Part shown: in pieces, positions 6,379-53,741 of the stretch
Layout of the letters: each line of letters starts with the position of its first letter
Numbering within the stretch: the first letter of the stretch is position 1
Assembly: GCF_900473935.1 (NCBI RefSeq)
Contig: NZ_UCNN01000027.1
Coordinates: 1-64,000, forward strand
Origin: Synechococcus sp. UW105
Lineage (GTDB): Bacteria > Cyanobacteriota > Cyanobacteriia > PCC-6307 > Cyanobiaceae
DNA: 64,000 nt
Direction: 5' to 3'
Position numbers and translations under genes: made by a program
The notes under the pieces: model-generated
What the model was told of the DNA's origin: nothing
Databases searched by the model: none
What the model saw: only the letters and a program-made list of their open reading frames with translations

Positions 6379-9048
6379 ATGACCGTCGCGTCTCCGAGCC
6401 TGGAGCCAGTCGATTTCAGCAGTCTGGTTGATTCAGGCATTAATCGTCCTGCCCGCTATATGGGGCATGAACTAGGGGTGGAGCCCCGCGATTGGTTTGC
6501 GGCAAGAGTTCGCTGGGCTCTCACCTATCCAGAGATCTATGAGGTGGGCTCCAGCAATCTGGGCCACATCATCCTTTATTCGATTCTCAATGCTGTGCCG
6601 GGGCAGCTTTGTGATCGCGCTTATTTGCCAGCAGCTGACCTGGCGACACGTCTGCGGGAGCGGCAGCAGGCGTTGTTCGCCGTCGAGAGCCGTCGACCGC
6701 TGCCGGCCTTTGACATTCTTGGTTTCAGTCTCAGCTACGAACTCGGCGCCACCAACATCCTGGAGATGCTTGATTTGGCATGGGTTCCGCAGCGGGCCTG
6801 TGATCGTGGAGACCTGCCTCTTGGTGATCCTCAGGCTCCTCCTCTGATCTTTGCGGGTGGTCCCACTGCGACCAGCAACCCCGAGCCCTATGCGGCCTTT
6901 TTCGATTTCTTTGCCCTGGGAGATGGTGAAGAGCTTCTGCCTGAGATCGGTCTGGTGGTGGCCGAGGCCAAGGCTGAAAATTGGAAGCGCTCACGCCTGC
7001 TCCATGACTTGGCCCAGGTGCCTGGTGTCTATGTGCCGTCTCTGTATGCCCCAGGAAAGGATGGGGTGACGGTCGAGCCACTGCATCCGGATCTCCCTCG
7101 TCGTCCGTTGCGGCGGGTGGCCACGCCGATGCCCCATTACGCGATGGGCCTTGTGCCCCATGTGGAGACGGTGCATGACCGGCTCACCGTTGAGATCAGG
7201 CGCGGTTGCACCCGGGGCTGCCGCTTTTGTCAGCCCGGCATGTTGACCCGGCCAGCCCGGGATGTGGAGCCGGAGGCCGTGATCGAAGCAGTGGAGACCG
7301 GGATGAAGCGCACCGGATACAGCGATTTCTCCCTGCTTTCGCTCAGCTGCAGCGATTATCTGGCTCTCCCAGCCGTTGGTGTGGAGCTGCGCAACCGCTT
7401 AGCGGATCAGAACGTCACCCTTCAATTGCCCAGTCAGCGGGTCGATCGTTTCGACGATGACATTGCCCACATCCTTGGAGGAGGGCGTCAGGCTGGCCTG
7501 ACCTTCGCGCCCGAGGCGGGCACCCAACGTCTGCGCGACATCGTCAACAAGGGACTGACAGACGATGACTTGCTCAACGGCATCCGCACAGCGATGCAGA
7601 ACGGCTATCGCAAGGTGAAGCTCTACTTCATGATCGGCTTACCAGGCGAGACGGATGACGATGTGCTCGGCATCGTCGACACCTGCGTGATGCTTCAACA
7701 GAGCTGTCGTGATCTGGGTCGCCTCTCCCTCAACATCACCATCAGTAATTTCACCCCTAAGCCACACACCCCCTTTCAGTGGCACAGCGTTTCGACGGCG
7801 GAGTTCGAACGCCGTCAGAGGCTGTTGCGGGATGCGGCGCGACGCCTCCGTGGCGTGCGCTTCAACTTCACTGATGTGCGGTTGTCGGCGATGGAAGACT
7901 TTGTTGGTCGGGGTGATCGACGTCTCGCAGCGGTGATCGAAGCCGCCTGGCGGGCGGGAGCTGGCATGGATGCCTGGTTTGAGGCGCTTGATCGCACCTA
8001 CACCGCTTGGACGGAGGCCATTGCTGCTGCTGGTCTGGAAGGGCGATATCGCGATCTGGAACTTGGAGGCTGGGGAGCGGCCAATGCCTTGAGTGCCGCC
8101 GATCTCGAGAGCTTTTGCTCCCAGCCACTGCCCTGGGATCACATCGATTCAGGCATTGAGAAGACCTGGCTAGCGGAGGACCTTCAGCGCGCACTGGCAG
8201 CTGCAGTGGTGCCGGACTGTTCTTTTGATGGCTGTAGCAGCTGTGGTGTCTGCGGACCTGACTTGGGGCACAACGTGGTTGTGCCCCCTCCGAGCATTCC
8301 AGTCCAGCGGCCCAGTCAGGCACCCGGCAGTGCAAGGGTCTGCCGGATCCGTTTTCAGTTCAGTAAGACAGGCTCCATGGCTCTCCTCAGTCATCTCGAT
8401 GTGGTGCGCATGCTTGAGCGATCCCTGCGTCGGACAGGCTTGCCGGTGAGTTTCACCGGAGGCTTCCATCCGCTGCCCCGTCTGCAGCTGGCCCTGGCCC
8501 TCCCCCTTGGTGTGGAAGCCCATGGGGAATGGATGGATCTGGAGTTTCTAGACGTGGTCGATCCCGAGCAGGTGATGACGCTCTGGCAAAGGGCTCTGCC
8601 CAACGAGTTCCGATTGCTGTCGGCCAAAGTGGTTCCGGTGTCGGAATCAAGCCTGTCCCAACGCCTGGAGTCTGCTGTTTGGGGCTTCAGGCTGTCTCGG
8701 CTCAGTGGTTCGGATTCTGCTTCGGAGGTTCGATTCGCGGCTGCGGTTCAGAAGGGGTGCACGGCCTTAATGGCTGGGCAACAGTTGATCTGGAAGGACA
8801 CCGACAAGAAGGGAAGGCCGCGTGAACGGGACTGCCGACCATTTCTGCTCAATCTTCAGCTGCATCCCGATCAGCATGAGCAACCTGCTCCCACTGGCGT
8901 TGATGCTGTGGAGTTGCAGTTGCATGCCGCAATTGATCCAATGGGACGCAGCCTCAAGCCGCTGCAGATTCAGTCTTGGCTAAGTGAGGAGCTGGGGATG
9001 GAGCTGCAACTGGAGCAGGTGCAACGAAGCGCTCTGCTGCTGCAGTAA
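6379..9048 (+). CDS. TIGR03960-family radical SAM protein fused to a TIGR03936/DUF2344 domain
   Basis: About 889 residues. The first ~600 residues form a B12-binding-like plus radical SAM module with the cluster motif CTRGCRFC near residue 275 and an EAGTQRLRD segment after it. A Cys-rich stretch CSFDGCSSCGVCG follows. The last ~220 residues form a separate domain (RFQFSKTGSMALLSHLDVVRMLERSLRR) typical of DUF2344. The family often sits next to RNase E/G genes and has been linked to tRNA/rRNA metabolism, but no reaction is established that I know of. Here it immediately precedes rne, which fits that pattern. I chose the ATG at 6379; a TTG at 6343 would add 12 residues. Confidence 0.88.
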   Translation: MTVASPSLEPVDFSSLVDSGINRPARYMGHELGVEPRDWFAARVRWALTYPEIYEVGSSNLGHIILYSILNAVPGQLCDRAYLPAADLATRLRERQQALFAVESRRPLPAFDILGFSLSYELGATNILEMLDLAWVPQRACDRGDLPLGDPQAPPLIFAGGPTATSNPEPYAAFFDFFALGDGEELLPEIGLVVAEAKAENWKRSRLLHDLAQVPGVYVPSLYAPGKDGVTVEPLHPDLPRRPLRRVATPMPHYAMGLVPHVETVHDRLTVEIRRGCTRGCRFCQPGMLTRPARDVEPEAVIEAVETGMKRTGYSDFSLLSLSCSDYLALPAVGVELRNRLADQNVTLQLPSQRVDRFDDDIAHILGGGRQAGLTFAPEAGTQRLRDIVNKGLTDDDLLNGIRTAMQNGYRKVKLYFMIGLPGETDDDVLGIVDTCVMLQQSCRDLGRLSLNITISNFTPKPHTPFQWHSVSTAEFERRQRLLRDAARRLRGVRFNFTDVRLSAMEDFVGRGDRRLAAVIEAAWRAGAGMDAWFEALDRTYTAWTEAIAAAGLEGRYRDLELGGWGAANALSAADLESFCSQPLPWDHIDSGIEKTWLAEDLQRALAAAVVPDCSFDGCSSCGVCGPDLGHNVVVPPPSIPVQRPSQAPGSARVCRIRFQFSKTGSMALLSHLDVVRMLERSLRRTGLPVSFTGGFHPLPRLQLALALPLGVEAHGEWMDLEFLDVVDPEQVMTLWQRALPNEFRLLSAKVVPVSESSLSQRLESAVWGFRLSRLSGSDSASEVRFAAAVQKGCTALMAGQQLIWKDTDKKGRPRERDCRPFLLNLQLHPDQHEQPAPTGVDAVELQLHAAIDPMGRSLKPLQIQSWLSEELGMELQLEQVQRSALLLQ

Positions 9049-14867: not shown

Positions 14868-15517
14868 CAGTCGACGTTGGCCAGGGTGTCGCGCAGCACG
14901 GTGCGAGCGGCAAGCTGACGCCGGGTCTCATCGAGCATCTCGAATTCCAGCTTCAGGCGCTCGCTGGTATCAGTGAGTTCGAGTAGCTCTTGCTGTTGTT
15001 CAGCGACTGGTCCACCGAGATGGGCCCCAATCCAGAACGACAACTCTCGCGGCAGTTCAGGTAGGTCTTCAGGCAGTGCTGCTGGCGAGTCGGTGAGTTT
15101 GCCAGTCAGTTCCACAACATCTCTGAGGGCTTGGCTGACGTTCTGGGCAAGTTCTGTGAGCTGGTCGCGGTCCTCGACAGGATCGTCTTCGATCCAACTC
15201 ACCATTGCCGTCCTGTAGGGGGCCTCACGGACCACGTCAAGCACGCGGAACCTTTGCTGGCCGAGGGTGACAATATTGCTCCGGCCATCATCTGATGTCT
15301 GATGCTGAAGGATCTCAGCGCAGCATCCAATCGATGCCATGGTCTGAGTGTTCGGGTTCCAGCGCACCACACCGAAGCGGCGATCATCCTCCAAAACGGT
15401 CTGCAGCATCATTCGATAGCGAGACTCGAAGATGTGCAATGGCAACACGTCCCTAGGGAACAGGACGATATCCGGCAGAGGGAAGAGGGGTAACTCTCTG
15501 ACGGACAGGTCAGCCAC
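14867..15517 (-). CDS. Lon-protease N-terminal substrate-binding-domain protein
   Basis: A 216-residue stand-alone LON_substr_bdg (PUA-like) protein with no protease domain. The N-terminus is diagnostic: ELPLFPLPDIVLFPRDVLPLHIFESRYRMM. It then has a beta-rich body, IGCCAEILQ and RFRVLDVVREAPYRTA, and a helical C-terminus. Such proteins are widespread in cyanobacteria with unknown role; substrate recognition or protein quality control is a guess. It heads a minus-strand unit with the methyltransferase (one-base overlap). The start ATG at 15517 directly precedes the conserved segment. Confidence 0.88.
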   Translation of the reverse strand: MADLSVRELPLFPLPDIVLFPRDVLPLHIFESRYRMMLQTVLEDDRRFGVVRWNPNTQTMASIGCCAEILQHQTSDDGRSNIVTLGQQRFRVLDVVREAPYRTAMVSWIEDDPVEDRDQLTELAQNVSQALRDVVELTGKLTDSPAALPEDLPELPRELSFWIGAHLGGPVAEQQQELLELTDTSERLKLEFEMLDETRRQLAARTVLRDTLANVD

Positions 15518-25600: not shown

Positions 25601-27222
25601 CCGGAGAGGGTGGCCAGCTGCCTGGACCGAAGGTGGATGAGTACATCGCCTGGCTGCGGAATAGCAAGCCAGGTGTGGCTCTGATTTCTCCGCCTCCCCA
25701 TCACGACATCTATTCCATTGAGGATCTGGCGCAGTTAATTCACGATCTCCATCAGGTGCACCCCAGTGCCAGGGTGTCGGTCAAGCTCGTGGCCGAGATC
25801 GGTATTGGCACCATCGCCGCAGGCGTTGCCAAGGCCAATGCGGACGTGATCCAGATCTCCGGTCACGATGGTGGCACGGGTGCCTCACCGTTGAGCTCCA
25901 TCAAGCATGCGGGAGGACCATGGGAACTGGGCCTCACCGAGGTGCATCGCAGCCTGATGGAGAACGGTCTGCGTGATCGCGTCCTCCTTCGTGCCGATGG
26001 AGGCCTCAAGACCGGTTGGGATGTCGTGATGGCTGCGCTCCTTGGCGCAGAGGAGTTCGGTTTCGGCTCGGTGGCGATGATCGCGGAGGGCTGCATCATG
26101 GCCCGCGTTTGCCACACCAATAATTGTCCAGTGGGTGTTGCGACCCAGAAAGAAGCTCTGCGCAAGCGCTTCACAGGACTCCCCGAGCATGTGGTGAATT
26201 TCTTCTTGTATGTCGCCGAGGAGGTGCGCCAGCTGATGAGCGTGCTTGGCGTGGCAAGCCTTGAGGAGCTGATCGGTCGTAATGATCTGCTGAAGCCTCG
26301 TGCGGTGAGCTTGGCCAAGACCAAGTCAGTGGATCTCACCACCTTGTTGGCGCCAGTTGTTGGTAGTAACAGTCGCAGCTGGCTGACGCATGCGGCTTCG
26401 GCTCATGGCAATGGACCGACCCTTGAAGATCAGTTGCTCGCTGATGCCGATGTGCTGGCGGCAATTCAGACCCATGGGTCTATTTCTCGCACCTTGGAGA
26501 TCATCAACACCGATCGCAGCATCGGTGCCCGATTGGCCGGTGAAATTGCTGCCCTTCACGGCAACCGTGGTTTTCAGGGAGAGTTGCAGCTTCATTTCCA
26601 CGGAGCGGCAGGTCAGAGCTTTGGAGCTTTTCTGGTGCAGGGAATGGATGTTCGCCTTCAGGGCGAAGCCAATGACTACATCGGCAAGGGAATGAATAGT
26701 GGTCGCATCGTTCTCGTCCCAAATCCCGGGACGGCATCCCCTGGTGAACAAGTGATTCTCGGCAACACGTGTCTTTACGGTGCCACCGGAGGGGAACTGT
26801 TTGTGCATGGGCGCGCCGGTGAACGCTTCGCGGTGCGCAACAGCGGTGCTCGGTGTGTCGTTGAGGGCACGGGTGACCACTGTTGTGAATACATGACTGG
26901 CGGGGTGGTGGTGGTGCTGGGCAGCACGGGCCGCAATGTGGGTGCTGGGATGACCGGCGGTGTGGCTTTCATCCTTGATACCAATGGCGGTCTCACTGAC
27001 CGGGTGAACCACGAGATCGTTGAGGTTTGCCCTCTAACGACGCGTGAACAGGAGGCCACTCTGAAAGGGTTACTCGAGGCTTATGTGGCTGCTACGGGCA
27101 GTGAGAAAGCCGTGGCTCTGTTGGCCGATTGGTCAGCAGCCAAGGAGCGCTTCAAACTGTTGGTTCCTCCGAGTGAGCGCGCTGCCATGGGTCTGCGTGA
27201 TCAGGCTGCAGTGGCCGCCTGA
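22615..27222 (+). CDS. gltB: Ferredoxin-dependent glutamate synthase
   Basis: A 1535-residue Fd-GOGAT converting 2-oxoglutarate and glutamine to two glutamates, the second half of ammonium assimilation. The class II glutaminase nucleophile is Cys27 in [11 protein letters not shown]; in the family the preceding propeptide is removed. The FMN/synthase domain has [16 protein letters not shown] and [15 protein letters not shown]. The 3Fe-4S cysteines lie in [17 protein letters not shown]. The C-terminal beta-helix has repeated GXXGG motifs. The last 13 codons lie in a 23-bp inverted repeat with the following gene. Confidence 0.97.
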
Positions 27223-27239
27223 TCACGCAGACCCATGGC
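27184..27239. repeat. Perfect 23-bp inverted repeat across the gltB stop and the next start
   Basis: The arm at 27184-27206 is perfectly complementary to 27217-27239, with a 10-base loop. The left arm is coding sequence for the gltB C-terminus (AMGLRDQA). The right arm contains the gltB TGA (27220-27222) and the ATG of the next gene (27235-27237). In mRNA this start codon would be buried in a 23-bp helix until a ribosome finishing gltB opens it. No T-run follows, so it is not a terminator. Confidence 0.9.
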
Positions 27240-31861: not shown

Positions 31862-32248
31862 AATCCATCCGCTGACCCAGCGGGCCTCAAGTTTTGTGTT
31901 AATGGGATTCAAAAAATTAGTTCTTAATTGTTATTGATTCCTCCAAAATGTCTGCACTGGGCTGTTAGCCGCTCTCTGGCAGACCCCCTGTCCTCACTGG
32001 GGCGCTGACGGATTGAACCTTTGTAACTCACCTGGCCAGAGGGTCGACATTCGCCTCTATGCTTCCGCCAGCGGTCCCCTCTTTGGGGCCCAATGCTCCA
32101 GTGAGAGTCGGGAGGCCTTTCTCCCGAAAACCACTGGCGCCCGGATGCTGTGAGGCTTTGCCGAGCTGCGCCCGGGGCCCCGATGAGCCTTCCGGTTTAT
32201 CGGAGGGGTGGCCCACCACCTCGATCCCGTCCCTCGAGGAACGACTCG
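31862..32248 (+). promoter_or_regulatory. psaAB promoter and structured leader
   Basis: This non-coding spacer upstream of psaA has an AT-rich block (31898-31955) that probably holds promoter elements. A structured 3' half includes nested stems CCAGTG/CACTGG around TCGGGAG/CTCCCGA (32098-32137), and GGTGG-CCCA-CCACC just before psaA. GTTACAAA (minus strand, near 32020-32027) resembles half of an HLR1/RpaB site, but a proper second repeat is missing. No protein-coding frame here is convincing. GAGGA precedes the psaA ATG. Confidence 0.5.
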
Positions 32249-34552
32249 ATGACCAAAAGCCCACCAGAGCGTGGGAGCACTCGCAAGAGCAAATTTGTCA
32301 AGGTCGACAACCCTGCGACCTTTGAACTGTTCGGTAAGCCCGGACATTTCGACAGATCTCTTGCGAAAGGTCCCAAAACCACAACCTGGGTTTGGAACCT
32401 CCACGCCAACGCTCACGATTTCGACTCACACACGAGCGACCTCCAAGAGGTTTCTCGCAGAATCTTCAGTGCTCACTTCGGCCATCTGGCCGTGGTGTTC
32501 ATTTGGCTGAGCGGCGCCTTCTTCCATGGAGCCCGCTTCTCCAACTATTCCGGCTGGCTTGCCGACCCCACTCACGTGAAGCCCAGTGCTCAGGTGGTGT
32601 GGCCGGTGTTCGGTCAGGAAATTCTCAACGGTGACATGGGTGCCGGGCATCAAGGCATCCAGATCACCTCAGGCCTCTTCCAAATGTGGCGTGCCTGGGG
32701 CATCACGACTGAAACCCAGTTGATGGCCCTGGCGATCGGCGCTCTGGTGATGGCCGGCCTCATGCTCAATGCAGGCGTCTTCCACTACCACAAGGCAGCT
32801 CCAAAGCTGGAGTGGTTCCAAGATGCCGAGGCCATGCTGAACCACCACCTGGCGGTTCTGTTCGGTCTGGGTTCCTTGTCATGGGCGGGTCACCTGATCC
32901 ATGTCTCGGCTCCCACCACCAAGCTGATGGATGCCATCGATGCCGGCCAACCGCTGGTCCTGAATGGCAAGACCATCGCGTCTGTGGCGGACATCCCTCT
33001 GCCTCACGAATTTTTCAACCAGGATCTCCTGGCTCAGCTTTATCCAGGAATCGGCTCCGGCATCGGTGCCTTCTTTAGCGGTAACTGGGCTGCTTACAGC
33101 GACTTCCTCACCTTCAAGGGTGGTCTCAACCCTGTGACTGGAAGCCTGTGGATGACCGACATCGCGCATCACCATTTGGCGATTGCCGTGATGTTCATCG
33201 TTGCTGGTCACATGTACCGCAACAACTACGGCATCGGGCACTCAATTAAGGAGATCCACGAAGCGCATCAGGGAGATCCTCTGCTCTTCCCTGCAAGCAA
33301 CGGCCATAAAGGCATCTACGAGTTCATGACGAACTCCTGGCATGCCCAGCTGGCTGTGAACCTTGCAATGGGTGGCTCGGTTTGCATCGTTGTTGCCCAG
33401 CACATGTACGCGATGCCTCCGTATCCGTACATCGGTATCGATTACCCGACTCAGATCGGTCTGTTCACCCATCACATGTGGATTGGTGGCTTTCTGATCG
33501 TTGGTGGTGCAGCGCACGCTGCGATCGCCATGGTTCGTGACTACGACCCCGCACAGCACGTCGACAACGTGCTTGACCGGGTGCTCAAGGCTCGCGATGC
33601 CATCATCAGCCACCTCAACTGGGTGTGCATCTGGCTCGGCGCTCACAGCTTCGGCCTGTATGTGCACAACGACACCATGCGTGCTCTGGGTCGCCCCCAG
33701 GACATGTTCAGTGACTCCGCAATCCAGCTGAGGCCTGTCTTTGCTCAATGGATCCAGGGCCTTCATGGCGCTGCAGCCGGAAGCACCGCTCCTAACGCTC
33801 TTGCTGGCGTCAGCGAAGTGTTCAACGGTTCCGTTGTGGCCATTGGTGGCAAGGTCGCCGCTGCCCCGATTCCTCTGGGCACCGCTGACTTCATGGTCCA
33901 CCACATCCATGCCTTCACGATTCACGTGACGGTTCTGATCCTGCTGAAGGGTGTCCTGTACGCCCGTAATTCACGTCTGGTTCCCGATAAGGCGAACCTG
34001 GGCTTCCGCTTCCCTTGCGATGGTCCTGGTCGTGGCGGCACCTGTCAGGTGTCTGCTTGGGACCACGTGTTCCTGGGTCTGTTCTGGATGTACAACTCCC
34101 TCTCCGTCGTGATCTTCCACTTCTCTTGGAAGATGCAAAGCGATGTGTGGGGCACGGTGAATGCTGATGGCTCTGTCCAGCACATCACCAACGGCAATTT
34201 TGCCAACAGCGCCATCACGATTAATGGCTGGCTGCGTGACTTCCTGTGGGCTCAGGCCGCACAGGTGATCAACAGCTATGGCTCCAACACCAGCGCCTAT
34301 GGCCTGATGTTCCTTGGAGCTCACTTCGTCTGGGCCTTCAGCCTGATGTTCCTGTTCAGCGGCCGCGGCTACTGGCAAGAGCTCATTGAGTCCATTGTTT
34401 GGGCTCACAACAAGCTGAAAGTGGCTCCGGCCATCCAGCCCCGTGCGCTGTCCATCACCCAGGGCCGTGCTGTGGGTGTCGCTCACTATCTTCTGGGCGG
34501 CATCGCGACCACGTGGGCCTTCTTCCACGCCCACATCCTTGTGGTCGGCTGA
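32249..34552 (+). CDS. psaA: Photosystem I P700 apoprotein A1
   Basis: A 767-residue PSI reaction-centre subunit with eleven transmembrane helices. It binds half of P700, antenna chlorophylls and, together with PsaB, the FX 4Fe-4S cluster. The FX loop [18 protein letters not shown] is intact. Many chlorophyll-ligating HxxxH-type pairs are seen ([31 protein letters not shown]). The start ATG at 32249 gives MTKSPPERG..., the expected N-terminus, with GAGGA about ten bases upstream. psaB follows 22 bases after the stop, so the two form an operon. Confidence 0.98.
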
Positions 34553-51426: not shown

Positions 51427-51831
51427 TCAGCGCTTGGAGAACTGAGGAGCTTTGCGGGCTTTCTTGAGGCCGTACTTGCGGCGTTCCTTGGCGCGGGGGT
51501 CGCGGCTGAGGTGGCCTTCGGTTTTCAAGGGCTTGCGGTTGTCGGCAGACAGCTCACAAAGAGCACGGGCTGCGCCCTGCTTGATGGCATCCGCCTGGCC
51601 GGTGAGACCGCCACCACGCACATTGACCAGGACGTCGTACTCGGTAATCAGGCCCAGAGTCTGAAGAGGAGCTTTGACAGCTGCGATGTAGGCGGGGTTG
51701 TAGTTCAGGTAATTGTCACCAGGGCGCCCGTTGATGGTGATCGTGCCATTGCCCGGAACGAGGCGAACACGCGCGACAGAGGTCTTACGGCGACCAGTGC
51801 CCCAGTAGACGACAGAATTGTTGGTGCTCAT
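51427..51831 (-). CDS. rpsI: 30S ribosomal protein S9
   Basis: A 134-residue S9. It has [58 protein letters not shown] and the basic tail [12 protein letters not shown] that reaches the P-site tRNA. Its ATG overlaps the rplM stop by four bases (ATGA), giving translational coupling. Confidence 0.97.
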
Positions 51832-52486: not shown

Positions 52487-53368
52487 TCAGTCTGTTTTCG
52501 GCAACGCTGGCGGATCCGGTGGTGGATCCTGCGATGCCAGAAAATACCGCGGCTGGCAATCGTACCACCCGCCTTTCGTAAAGATGGACTCCCCATAACC
52601 GGCTCGAAGAAGGCAGAGACCTTGCGCAGGGGCGGCATCCTTCACTTCACTGCGCCGCCGCTCTCGCCAGCGCCTTTCGAAGGTCTCCAAGGTGAGCCGC
52701 TGCTCGCCTAAGGCCACGAGTTGCCCCATGAGCAGGCGCACCATGCCGTAGAGAAATCCACTGGCCTGGATCTCAACGTTCACGAGGTCTCCTTGGCGCT
52801 CCAGGCTCACCTCCTGAATGGTGGTGCGTGCATGGGCTCGTCGGCTGCCGGCGCGCATGAAGGCGCTGAAATCATGGAGCCCCACCAGGCCCTCGAGCGC
52901 CTTGGTCATTAAGCCATCGTTCAGCTTCGTCTGATAGCGATGCCAGCTCCACGGGGCCAGGAACAGATTTGGCCGTCGGCCGTTGTAGACGGTGTAGCGG
53001 TAGCGCCTATACGTGGCTGAATAACAGGCATGCCAGGAAAGAGGCCGTTCCACTGCCTCGCGTACCCGGATGCTTCCTGGTAGACGACCATTCAGAGCTG
53101 GTGCCCAACGCCAGGCTGGAATTGGGCCGCAACAGTCAAAATGCACCACTTGCCCGGCTGCGTGAACGCCGGCGTCGGTGCGCCCGGCGGCAAACGTCTG
53201 CACGGGACGATGGGGGTCTAATTGGCTGATGGCATCTTCCAAAACGGCCTGCACGCTTTTGCCCTGCCGTTGTCGCTGCCACCCACAAAATGCGGAGCCC
53301 TCGTACTGCAGGCTGAGGGCAATCCGTCGCTTCGACGGATTGCCCTCAGCAGCAGACGAGGGCTCCAT
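52487..53368 (-). CDS. truA: tRNA pseudouridine(38-40) synthase
   Basis: A 293-residue TruA. The conserved core begins [20 protein letters not shown] near residue 14. The catalytic aspartate is in [16 protein letters not shown], and later parts include [15 protein letters not shown] and [19 protein letters not shown]. The first ~13 residues ([13 protein letters not shown]) precede the homologous region, and their DNA is a quasi-inverted copy of the DNA encoding [12 protein letters not shown]. It lies 22 bases after rplQ, at the end of the alpha-operon portion. Confidence 0.95.
53294..53366. repeat. Long quasi-palindrome at the truA start
   Basis: The outer arms (53294-53303 and 53357-53366, 10 bp) and inner arms (53312-53329 and 53333-53350, 18 bp) are perfectly complementary with a three-base loop. 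They are separated by an imperfect 8/6-base stretch that itself shares GCAG. The third base of the truA ATG is the first base of the structure, so the start codon lies at the foot of a ~28-bp stem. Confidence 0.9.
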
Positions 53369-53390
53369 GCTGATCAGGACTCAGGCCCGA

Positions 53391-53741
53391 TCAGACCAAT
53401 TCAATAATGGCCATTTCGGCGTTGTCGCCACGACGGGGCACCGTGCGTGTGATGCGGGTGTAACCACCTTTGCGATCGCCGTAGCGGTCTTGAGCTTTGT
53501 CAAACAGCGTGTGAACCAGCTGCTTGTCGTAGATGTAGCCGATAGCCCGGCGCCGGGCGGCCAAGCTGCCGTCCTTGGCGAGGGTGATCATCCGCTCCGC
53601 TTCATCACGCAGCGCCTTGGCACGGGCTTTGGTGGTGGTGACACGACCTTCGCGGATCAACTGGGTCGTCAGGCCGCGAAGCATGGCCTTGCGTTGGTCA
53701 GCCGGACGGCCTAGCTGAGGAACTCGACATTGGTGACGCAT
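53391..53741 (-). CDS. rplQ: 50S ribosomal protein L17
   Basis: A 116-residue L17. It begins [24 protein letters not shown] and has [21 protein letters not shown] and [25 protein letters not shown]. Normal length. It follows rpoA by 36 bases and precedes truA. Confidence 0.97.

Follow-up and report, generated by a model that had tools for sequence, protein, structure and literature searches.

The start of truA, the gene for tRNA pseudouridine(38-40) synthase, carries in Synechococcus sp. UW105 a predicted hairpin that is old and genus-wide, and of which the 64,000-nt stretch of DNA analysed here (the window) holds an unusually perfect version. The hairpin is conserved, has more structure than coding accounts for, is followed by codons biased towards a run of U, stands at a gene whose canonical start codons are missing in many relatives, and has in the window an inner arm of derived state. 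We consider, with a confidence hardly above even, that it is a selected RNA element resembling an intrinsic terminator, which lies in the first codons of truA and keeps TruA low among the ribosomal-protein genes. Judged from the sequence, the hairpin probably holds truA expression down; we further infer co-transcription with rplQ, termination and a role in dosage. If this is correct, a regulatory RNA signal is hidden in coding codons and upheld by synonymous choice and compensatory change across this genus of marine cyanobacteria, and it would explain a low-dose RNA-modifying enzyme being placed among ribosomal-protein genes.

Structure and conservation of the truA hairpin

The genes on the minus strand of the window are found in the order rplQ, truA, and then rplM and rpsI. 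truA covers 52487–53368 and the upstream gene rplQ (L17) 53391–53741, with 22 nt between the rplQ stop and the truA ATG. The start of rplM (L13, 51828–52289 from an MNKT start) is located 197 nt past the truA stop, and rpsI (S9) covers 51427–51831 and shows a YWGTGRRK motif, the latter two genes being read from the sequence without a family search. The truA–rplM spacing is 153–204 nt in the 27 genus loci measured, leaving room for a promoter of rplM's own, and 67–368 nt with a median of 178 in other loci; the gaps are similar and therefore do not separate the two groups. The ATG of truA (53366–53368) is the only in-frame ATG, GTG or TTG between the preceding stop and the core. TIGR00071 (TruA) covers residues 14–253 of the protein, and the family core thus begins after an N-terminal extension, as the initial annotation of this DNA had it.

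The whole hairpin is located at 53294–53366 on the minus strand, at the start of the truA mRNA, and is defined by its inverted-repeat arms, its fold and its conserved position in relatives. The repeat search and pair counts give an outer stem, with a 5' arm in the mRNA at 53356–53366 and a 3' arm at 53294–53304 that codes for YEGS of the TruA core motif, these arms matching to 100% over 11 bp (10 bp in the initial annotation). The repeat search together with the alignment gives an inner stem, with a 5' arm at 53333–53350 that is rewritten in this lineage compared to the nearest relative, and a 3' arm at 53312–53329 that has the same sequence there. The inner arms match to 100% over 18 bp around a loop of 3 nt, and the palindrome exists as it was first described. 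Because truA covers 52487–53368 on the minus strand, its ATG is 53366–53368 and the outer arm opens on the G of this codon, placing the start codon at the foot of a very stable predicted hairpin, again as first proposed. For the minus-strand RNA of 53280–53400 the predicted folding energy is -81.9 kcal/mol, whereas dinucleotide shuffles give -43.9 +/- 3.9 (z -9.77), 0 of 200 being as good; the transcribed strand thus bears a stable predicted hairpin, as an intrinsic terminator would.

For comparison, 80 relatives were retained of 152 found in named genome contigs. The genus set has a TruA match in 28 of 31 genomes, the three without a match being 58–73% complete. The duplicates L001, L002, L007, L011 and L019 and the split fragment L108 were removed before counting, and the 104 loci include both L016 and L098, which are identical across the aligned 80 nt and probably one genome. 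The typical stem of the genus joins CCCTCG-x-CTG, from the extension, to CAG-TA-CGAGGG, from the QYEG codons, and the 5' foot of the predicted hairpin is found at -62 to -52 before QYEG.

Folding was compared with that of synonymous codons redrawn from each gene's own usage, which controls for both protein sequence and codon usage. The resulting z is below -2 in 27 of the 28 genus loci, with L092 at -1.88 as the exception, and in 2 of the 65 remaining relatives' loci; it is also below -2 in 8 of 11 extra loci, which were selected since the hairpin was visible and are therefore not independent evidence. The mean z is -4.12 in the 39 loci (28 of the genus and 11 extra) and +0.44 in the 65 others. 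A first run on a slightly longer segment gave 37/39 and 3/65, some of the 65 having undefined values. For four neighbouring genes of the genus (rplQ, rpoA, rplM and rpsI), 0 of 104 gene starts have z below -2. The sister-genus set consists of the 12 of 19 genomes with a TruA match, among the matches listed, five of which were hits of the RNA model; 11 of the 12 loci have z below -2, as do 6 of 7 when the five genomes already hit by the covariance model are left out, and L203 of this genus is without the hairpin. By the recoding, the neighbouring-gene controls and the sister genus, the segment is more structured than its protein sequence calls for. In L079 (a Synechococcaceae MAG) another strong hairpin stands at the truA start, with arm sequences of its own and z -4.84, and is perhaps of independent origin, and in the truA extension of L084 the left-arm motif GAACCCTCG is present twice, 15 nt apart.

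Codon bias after the stem and pairing of the arms

Intrinsic terminators are built of a hairpin with a U-run behind it on the transcribed strand, and we read the element as resembling one. The tail after the hairpin in the window (53283–53293, minus strand) contains U but is weak, with a T run at 53287–53290, that is TTTT beginning three bases past the palindrome; compared to the relatives' loci the window has the strongest stem and one of the weakest tails. The tail codons in the genus are Ser-x-Phe-Cys, and Phe is written TTT in 43 of 43 cases against 136/239 elsewhere in truA (p 5e-10), with a weaker figure in the sister genus (11/12 against 64/119, p 0.013) and no bias in the 65 other loci (20/50 against 262/629, p 0.88), the Fisher tests on the tail codons counting related genomes as independent. 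The Cys codon is TGT in 23/28 genus cases against 36/133 elsewhere in truA, with little bias in the sister genus (7/12 against 21/49). Each of the 28 genus loci has a tail richer in T than its synonymous recodings (mean 8.5 against 6.4), and there are runs of eight T in two genus clades and of seven in a third. The 8 bases past the predicted stem hold 7–8 T in 14 of the 28 genus loci and 4–6 in the other 14, with 5 in the window. The third base of the tail Phe column does not change on the tree, but the same is true of 3 out of 49 further two-fold columns of the genus set (27 sequences) and of 1 out of 47 in the 35-sequence set. Neither in the window nor in L103 was the hairpin called by a simple terminator scan, whose limits (a loop of 8 and an unbroken stem) do not suit a long bulged stem.

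Pairing between the arms was analysed in an alignment of 36 sequences (A2), with L037, L043 and L016 omitted, and L109 was omitted from the trees for the third-base and pair tests. In A2 87.5% of the cells pair, compared to 82.6% with partners shuffled among sequences and 35 to 47% with the structure slid by 1 to 3 columns. Cells changed on both sides number 29 against 12.4 when shuffled, and pairs with changes on both sides number 4, a value reached in 39 of 500 shuffles, with 5 found when the structure is slid by +3. Pair 11-80, at the third base of a Gly codon, is AU in 13 sequences, CG in 10, UA in 7, GU in 2, GC in 1 and other in 3, and is thus paired in 33 of 36. Of 21 uniform clades on the 35-sequence tree, 16 are Watson-Crick at this position, 8.3 being expected (p 0.0006), the pair being one of ten put to the tree test. 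The other nine have no tree-corrected covariation on that tree, mostly because they hardly vary, and compensatory change beyond relatedness was accordingly found for one pair of ten.

Two results limit the RNA reading. RNAalifold recovered 4 pairs on A2, and G.U is not above A.C, as sense-strand RNA would favour, with 21 against 28 over 18 pairs and 15 against 22 with two pairs omitted. When the family genomes were searched with a covariance model made from A2, 29 of 151 had matches at E <= 0.01, and 28 of the 30 loci kept contain the TruA motif searched for; several of the weaker matches fold differently, and since the right arm is coding such matches mark truA and not the hairpin.

Origin of the extension and rewriting of the inner arm

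The nearest relative of the window is L002 (Synechococcus sp. UW140), with a TruA 97% identical, and L082 is identical to L002 in this region. Both have the same N-terminal extension and the same ATG as the window, without a perfect inner arm, and the compared N-terminal segment has 22 protein letters in L002 and 23 in the window. Between the window and L082, 9 of 20 alignment columns are changed in the inner left arm, a 3-nt insertion included, against 27 of 658 elsewhere in the same alignment, 3 of the 27 being an artefact of the slice end, and the inner right arm is unchanged. The outgroups L083 and L109 look like L082 at the inner arm, and the state in the window is therefore derived. A dense cluster of changes hence matches one arm to the unchanged other arm and is derived compared to the outgroups, as expected of a template switch; in the recent past the left inner arm was replaced by a reverse-complement copy of the right one, with one codon gained, and template switching would fit the pattern as the cause. 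The same kind of change is seen in another genus, where L043 has 20-bp perfect arms and L037 7 bp and the two differ in 6 of 20 columns there and in 20 of 655 elsewhere, which makes it plausible that perfection of the arms has recurred at the truA locus. Template switching is known to create and mend RNA hairpins (PMC8794818, available part), and coding inverted repeats are homogenised by it in yeast (PMC8604942, available part). The likeness to these published cases is that a cluster of changes makes one arm the reverse complement of the other; the difference, so far as the available parts of both papers go, is that here a bacterial gene is changed within its start, where an old conserved hairpin was already present. 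It would be a natural case in which a template-switch-like change perfects a hairpin in a bacterial gene.

The initial annotation had proposed that the N-terminal extension, and with it a shifted start codon, came from a snap-back duplication in this lineage. It is true that the inner left arm exactly reverse-complements the right one and that the extension precedes the TruA core, but the extension is not absent from the nearest relatives, which share it and the ATG without having the perfect arm, the gain is one codon only, and the open frame and the outer hairpin at the truA start occur throughout the genus. A comparison of truA 5' ends across relatives, as the annotation had suggested, hence finds the hairpin old and genus-wide, the outcome that it had itself named as refuting. 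What stands of the proposal is a rewrite of the inner left arm resembling a template switch; the origin of the N-terminus does not, and we find that origin scarcely credible, the relatives refuting it in this lineage except in so far as the old hairpin of the genus may itself have had such a beginning.

A further possibility is that the palindrome has no function and marks a mutational hotspot, where template switching recopies the arms and the protein motif QYEG holds the right one constant. The perfection of the arms in the window compared to L082 and in L043 compared to L037 would agree with this, as would the published template switching that makes and mends hairpins (PMC8794818 and PMC8604942, in the parts available) and the lack of an excess of G.U over A.C. 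Recopying should, on the other hand, erase the one-base difference in length between the left arm (six bases, x, CTG) and the right arm CAGTACGAGGG, yet 22 of 28 genus loci retain it, and a hotspot predicts neither the U-run bias nor the tracking of single bases at the Gly third position through many clades, both of which are seen. We regard this explanation as improbable.

The junction at gltB had been taken as a second event of the same kind in the window. This repeat (27184–27239) has a 23-bp perfect core and 26-nt arms at 96%, and spans the gltB stop and the ATG (27235) of the next ORF without being followed by a U-run. The nearest relative has both arms unbroken and G005 shows a weaker complement, so that the repeat is not a fresh event in this strain, and the idea of recurrent fresh palindromes in the window was dropped. 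Since it reaches the start of the next ORF and has no U-run, it is a different element from the truA hairpin. Inverted repeats with arms of at least 11 bp and a loop of at most 12 were not found in five 60-kb order-1 Markov sequences modelled on the window; 335 kb of the real genome contained 4 with arms of at least 15 bp, two of them in the window, the 335 kb being the window plus 270,696 sampled bases, or 12.6% of the genome. The two outside the window are located in L150 at 15289–15329 (18-bp perfect arms and a 5-nt loop, 140 nt past an ORF end) and in L146 at 8553–8591 (17-bp perfect arms and a 5-nt loop, inside overlapping ORFs).

Start codons and possible modes of action

An in-frame ATG, GTG or TTG is missing from 35 of the 104 loci in the stretch that runs from the preceding stop to the last five codons ahead of QYEG, compared to 0 of 374 in the same kind of search for rplQ, rpoA, rplM and rpsI where anchors were found. 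The genus accounts for 14 of its 28 loci without a canonical start before the core, three of the 14 having one at -3, inside the core. The other 14 comprise two with ATG and eight with GTG near -60, and four with only TTG, at -48 or -27, inside the hairpin. The codon at -60, the position of the ATG in the window, is AUC (six) or AUU (five) in eleven genus loci. In L098/L016 there is an in-frame stop at -69, and ACG and AUU are near-cognate candidates before the core. It is from this absence of alternatives that we think codons other than ATG, GTG and TTG may initiate truA translation. A rare non-AUG start in a translation-related gene is known from infC, which uses AUU; the truA starts differ in following from the absence of alternatives and in being known here from sequence alone. 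In many Synechococcus and Cyanobium genomes truA cannot start at ATG, GTG or TTG, and the annotated starts there therefore deserve checking. Fusion of RplQ and TruA by a frameshift was considered and rejected, both in L098/L016, where the stop at -69 is followed by no ATG, GTG or TTG before the core, and in genomes like the window, where an in-frame stop follows the rplQ stop; the exclusion covers loci with an in-frame stop, as distinct from those with the frame open through the end of rplQ. As separate observations, rpoA has GTG or TTG, and no ATG, between the preceding stop and the conserved N-terminal motif in 91 of 91 anchored loci, and 18 Cyanobium/Synechococcus-type loci (L025, L028, L031, L033, L038, L041, L046, L047, L049, L050, L055, L056, L065, L070, L072, L073, L076 and L077) without ATG, GTG or TTG before the core have a CTG overlapping the rplQ stop (CTGA) among their few near-cognate candidates.

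In the terminator reading that we favour, the first approximately 25 codons of truA would double as the hairpin, with its 5' foot at the start codon and the U-run following in Ser-x-Phe-Cys. Transcription should enter truA from rplQ, and the ribosomes ending rplQ should halt 24 nt before the hairpin in this genome, so that the hairpin would be free to fold on the nascent RNA. The hairpin and the U-run might then release a part of the polymerases by leaky intrinsic termination, and weak start codons in many relatives might lower TruA further. The matching of the arms would be upheld by compensatory change and occasionally by template switching, which in this strain may have produced the near-perfect palindrome of 73 nt and made the gene one codon longer on balance. 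An unlikely variant is a ribosome-gated attenuator, where transcription of truA would end at the terminator unless a ribosome initiates at an AUU/AUC/UUG-type codon at the hairpin foot and keeps it open; scarce initiation would, if this holds, set the TruA dose inside the ribosomal-protein operon.

A selected RNA element might also act after transcription, either by blocking 30S loading at the truA start or as the target of a double-strand RNase whose cut parts the message of rplQ from that of truA; the U-run would then be incidental. The 5' foot of the hairpin at -62 to -52 before QYEG overlaps candidate start codons, the 14 of 28 genus loci without ATG, GTG or TTG before the core also point to low initiation, and long perfect stems are classical substrates of RNase III. 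Such a mode of action leaves the TTT bias after the stem unexplained, which is present with the hairpin and absent in other loci, and we hold it possible while well short of probable.

Hairpins followed by a U-run are known from S. elongatus, which is reported to be without Rho and where leaky terminators within operons reportedly lower the downstream genes and are proposed to set stoichiometry (PMC3219970, available part). The intra-operon terminators of S. elongatus PCC 7942 described in the available part of that paper are alike in having a hairpin and then a U-run, a weak one in the window, between two genes of an operon, in the proposed stoichiometry role and in the absence of Rho; they differ in that the truA element is located in the first codons of the downstream gene with arms and tail coding, that its stem is longer and bulged, and that termination here would be deduced from the sequence. 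Premature intrinsic termination in 5' UTRs or ORFs has been described in E. coli, for example at ispU (PMC7815308, available part), with a likeness in the stem-loop and U-run early in the transcription unit, while the E. coli cases have mapped 3' ends and, in that part of the paper, no known relation to rplQ or truA. The L17 downstream element (RF01708; PMC2864571, available part) is likewise a structured RNA directly after the L17 gene, but it is described there from potential 3' UTRs of Lactobacillales and Listeria and has many G-U pairs and GNRA loops, and RF01708 was not matched at the truA hairpin. In the literature covered, with most subscription journals outside it, no truA start hairpin and no non-AUG truA starts in Synechococcus were found. 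Terminators themselves being known, the novelty lies in an intrinsic-terminator-like element within the first codons of its downstream gene. In five sources no Rfam family reaches the gathering cut-off at the hairpin, with only sub-threshold miRNA-precursor models and Chloroflexi-1 at that of the window and none at L103. Elsewhere in the window, at 32056–32252 on the plus strand, there is a psaA RNA motif (RF01752, 181 bits), which is known as a cis-regulatory element of cyanobacteria.
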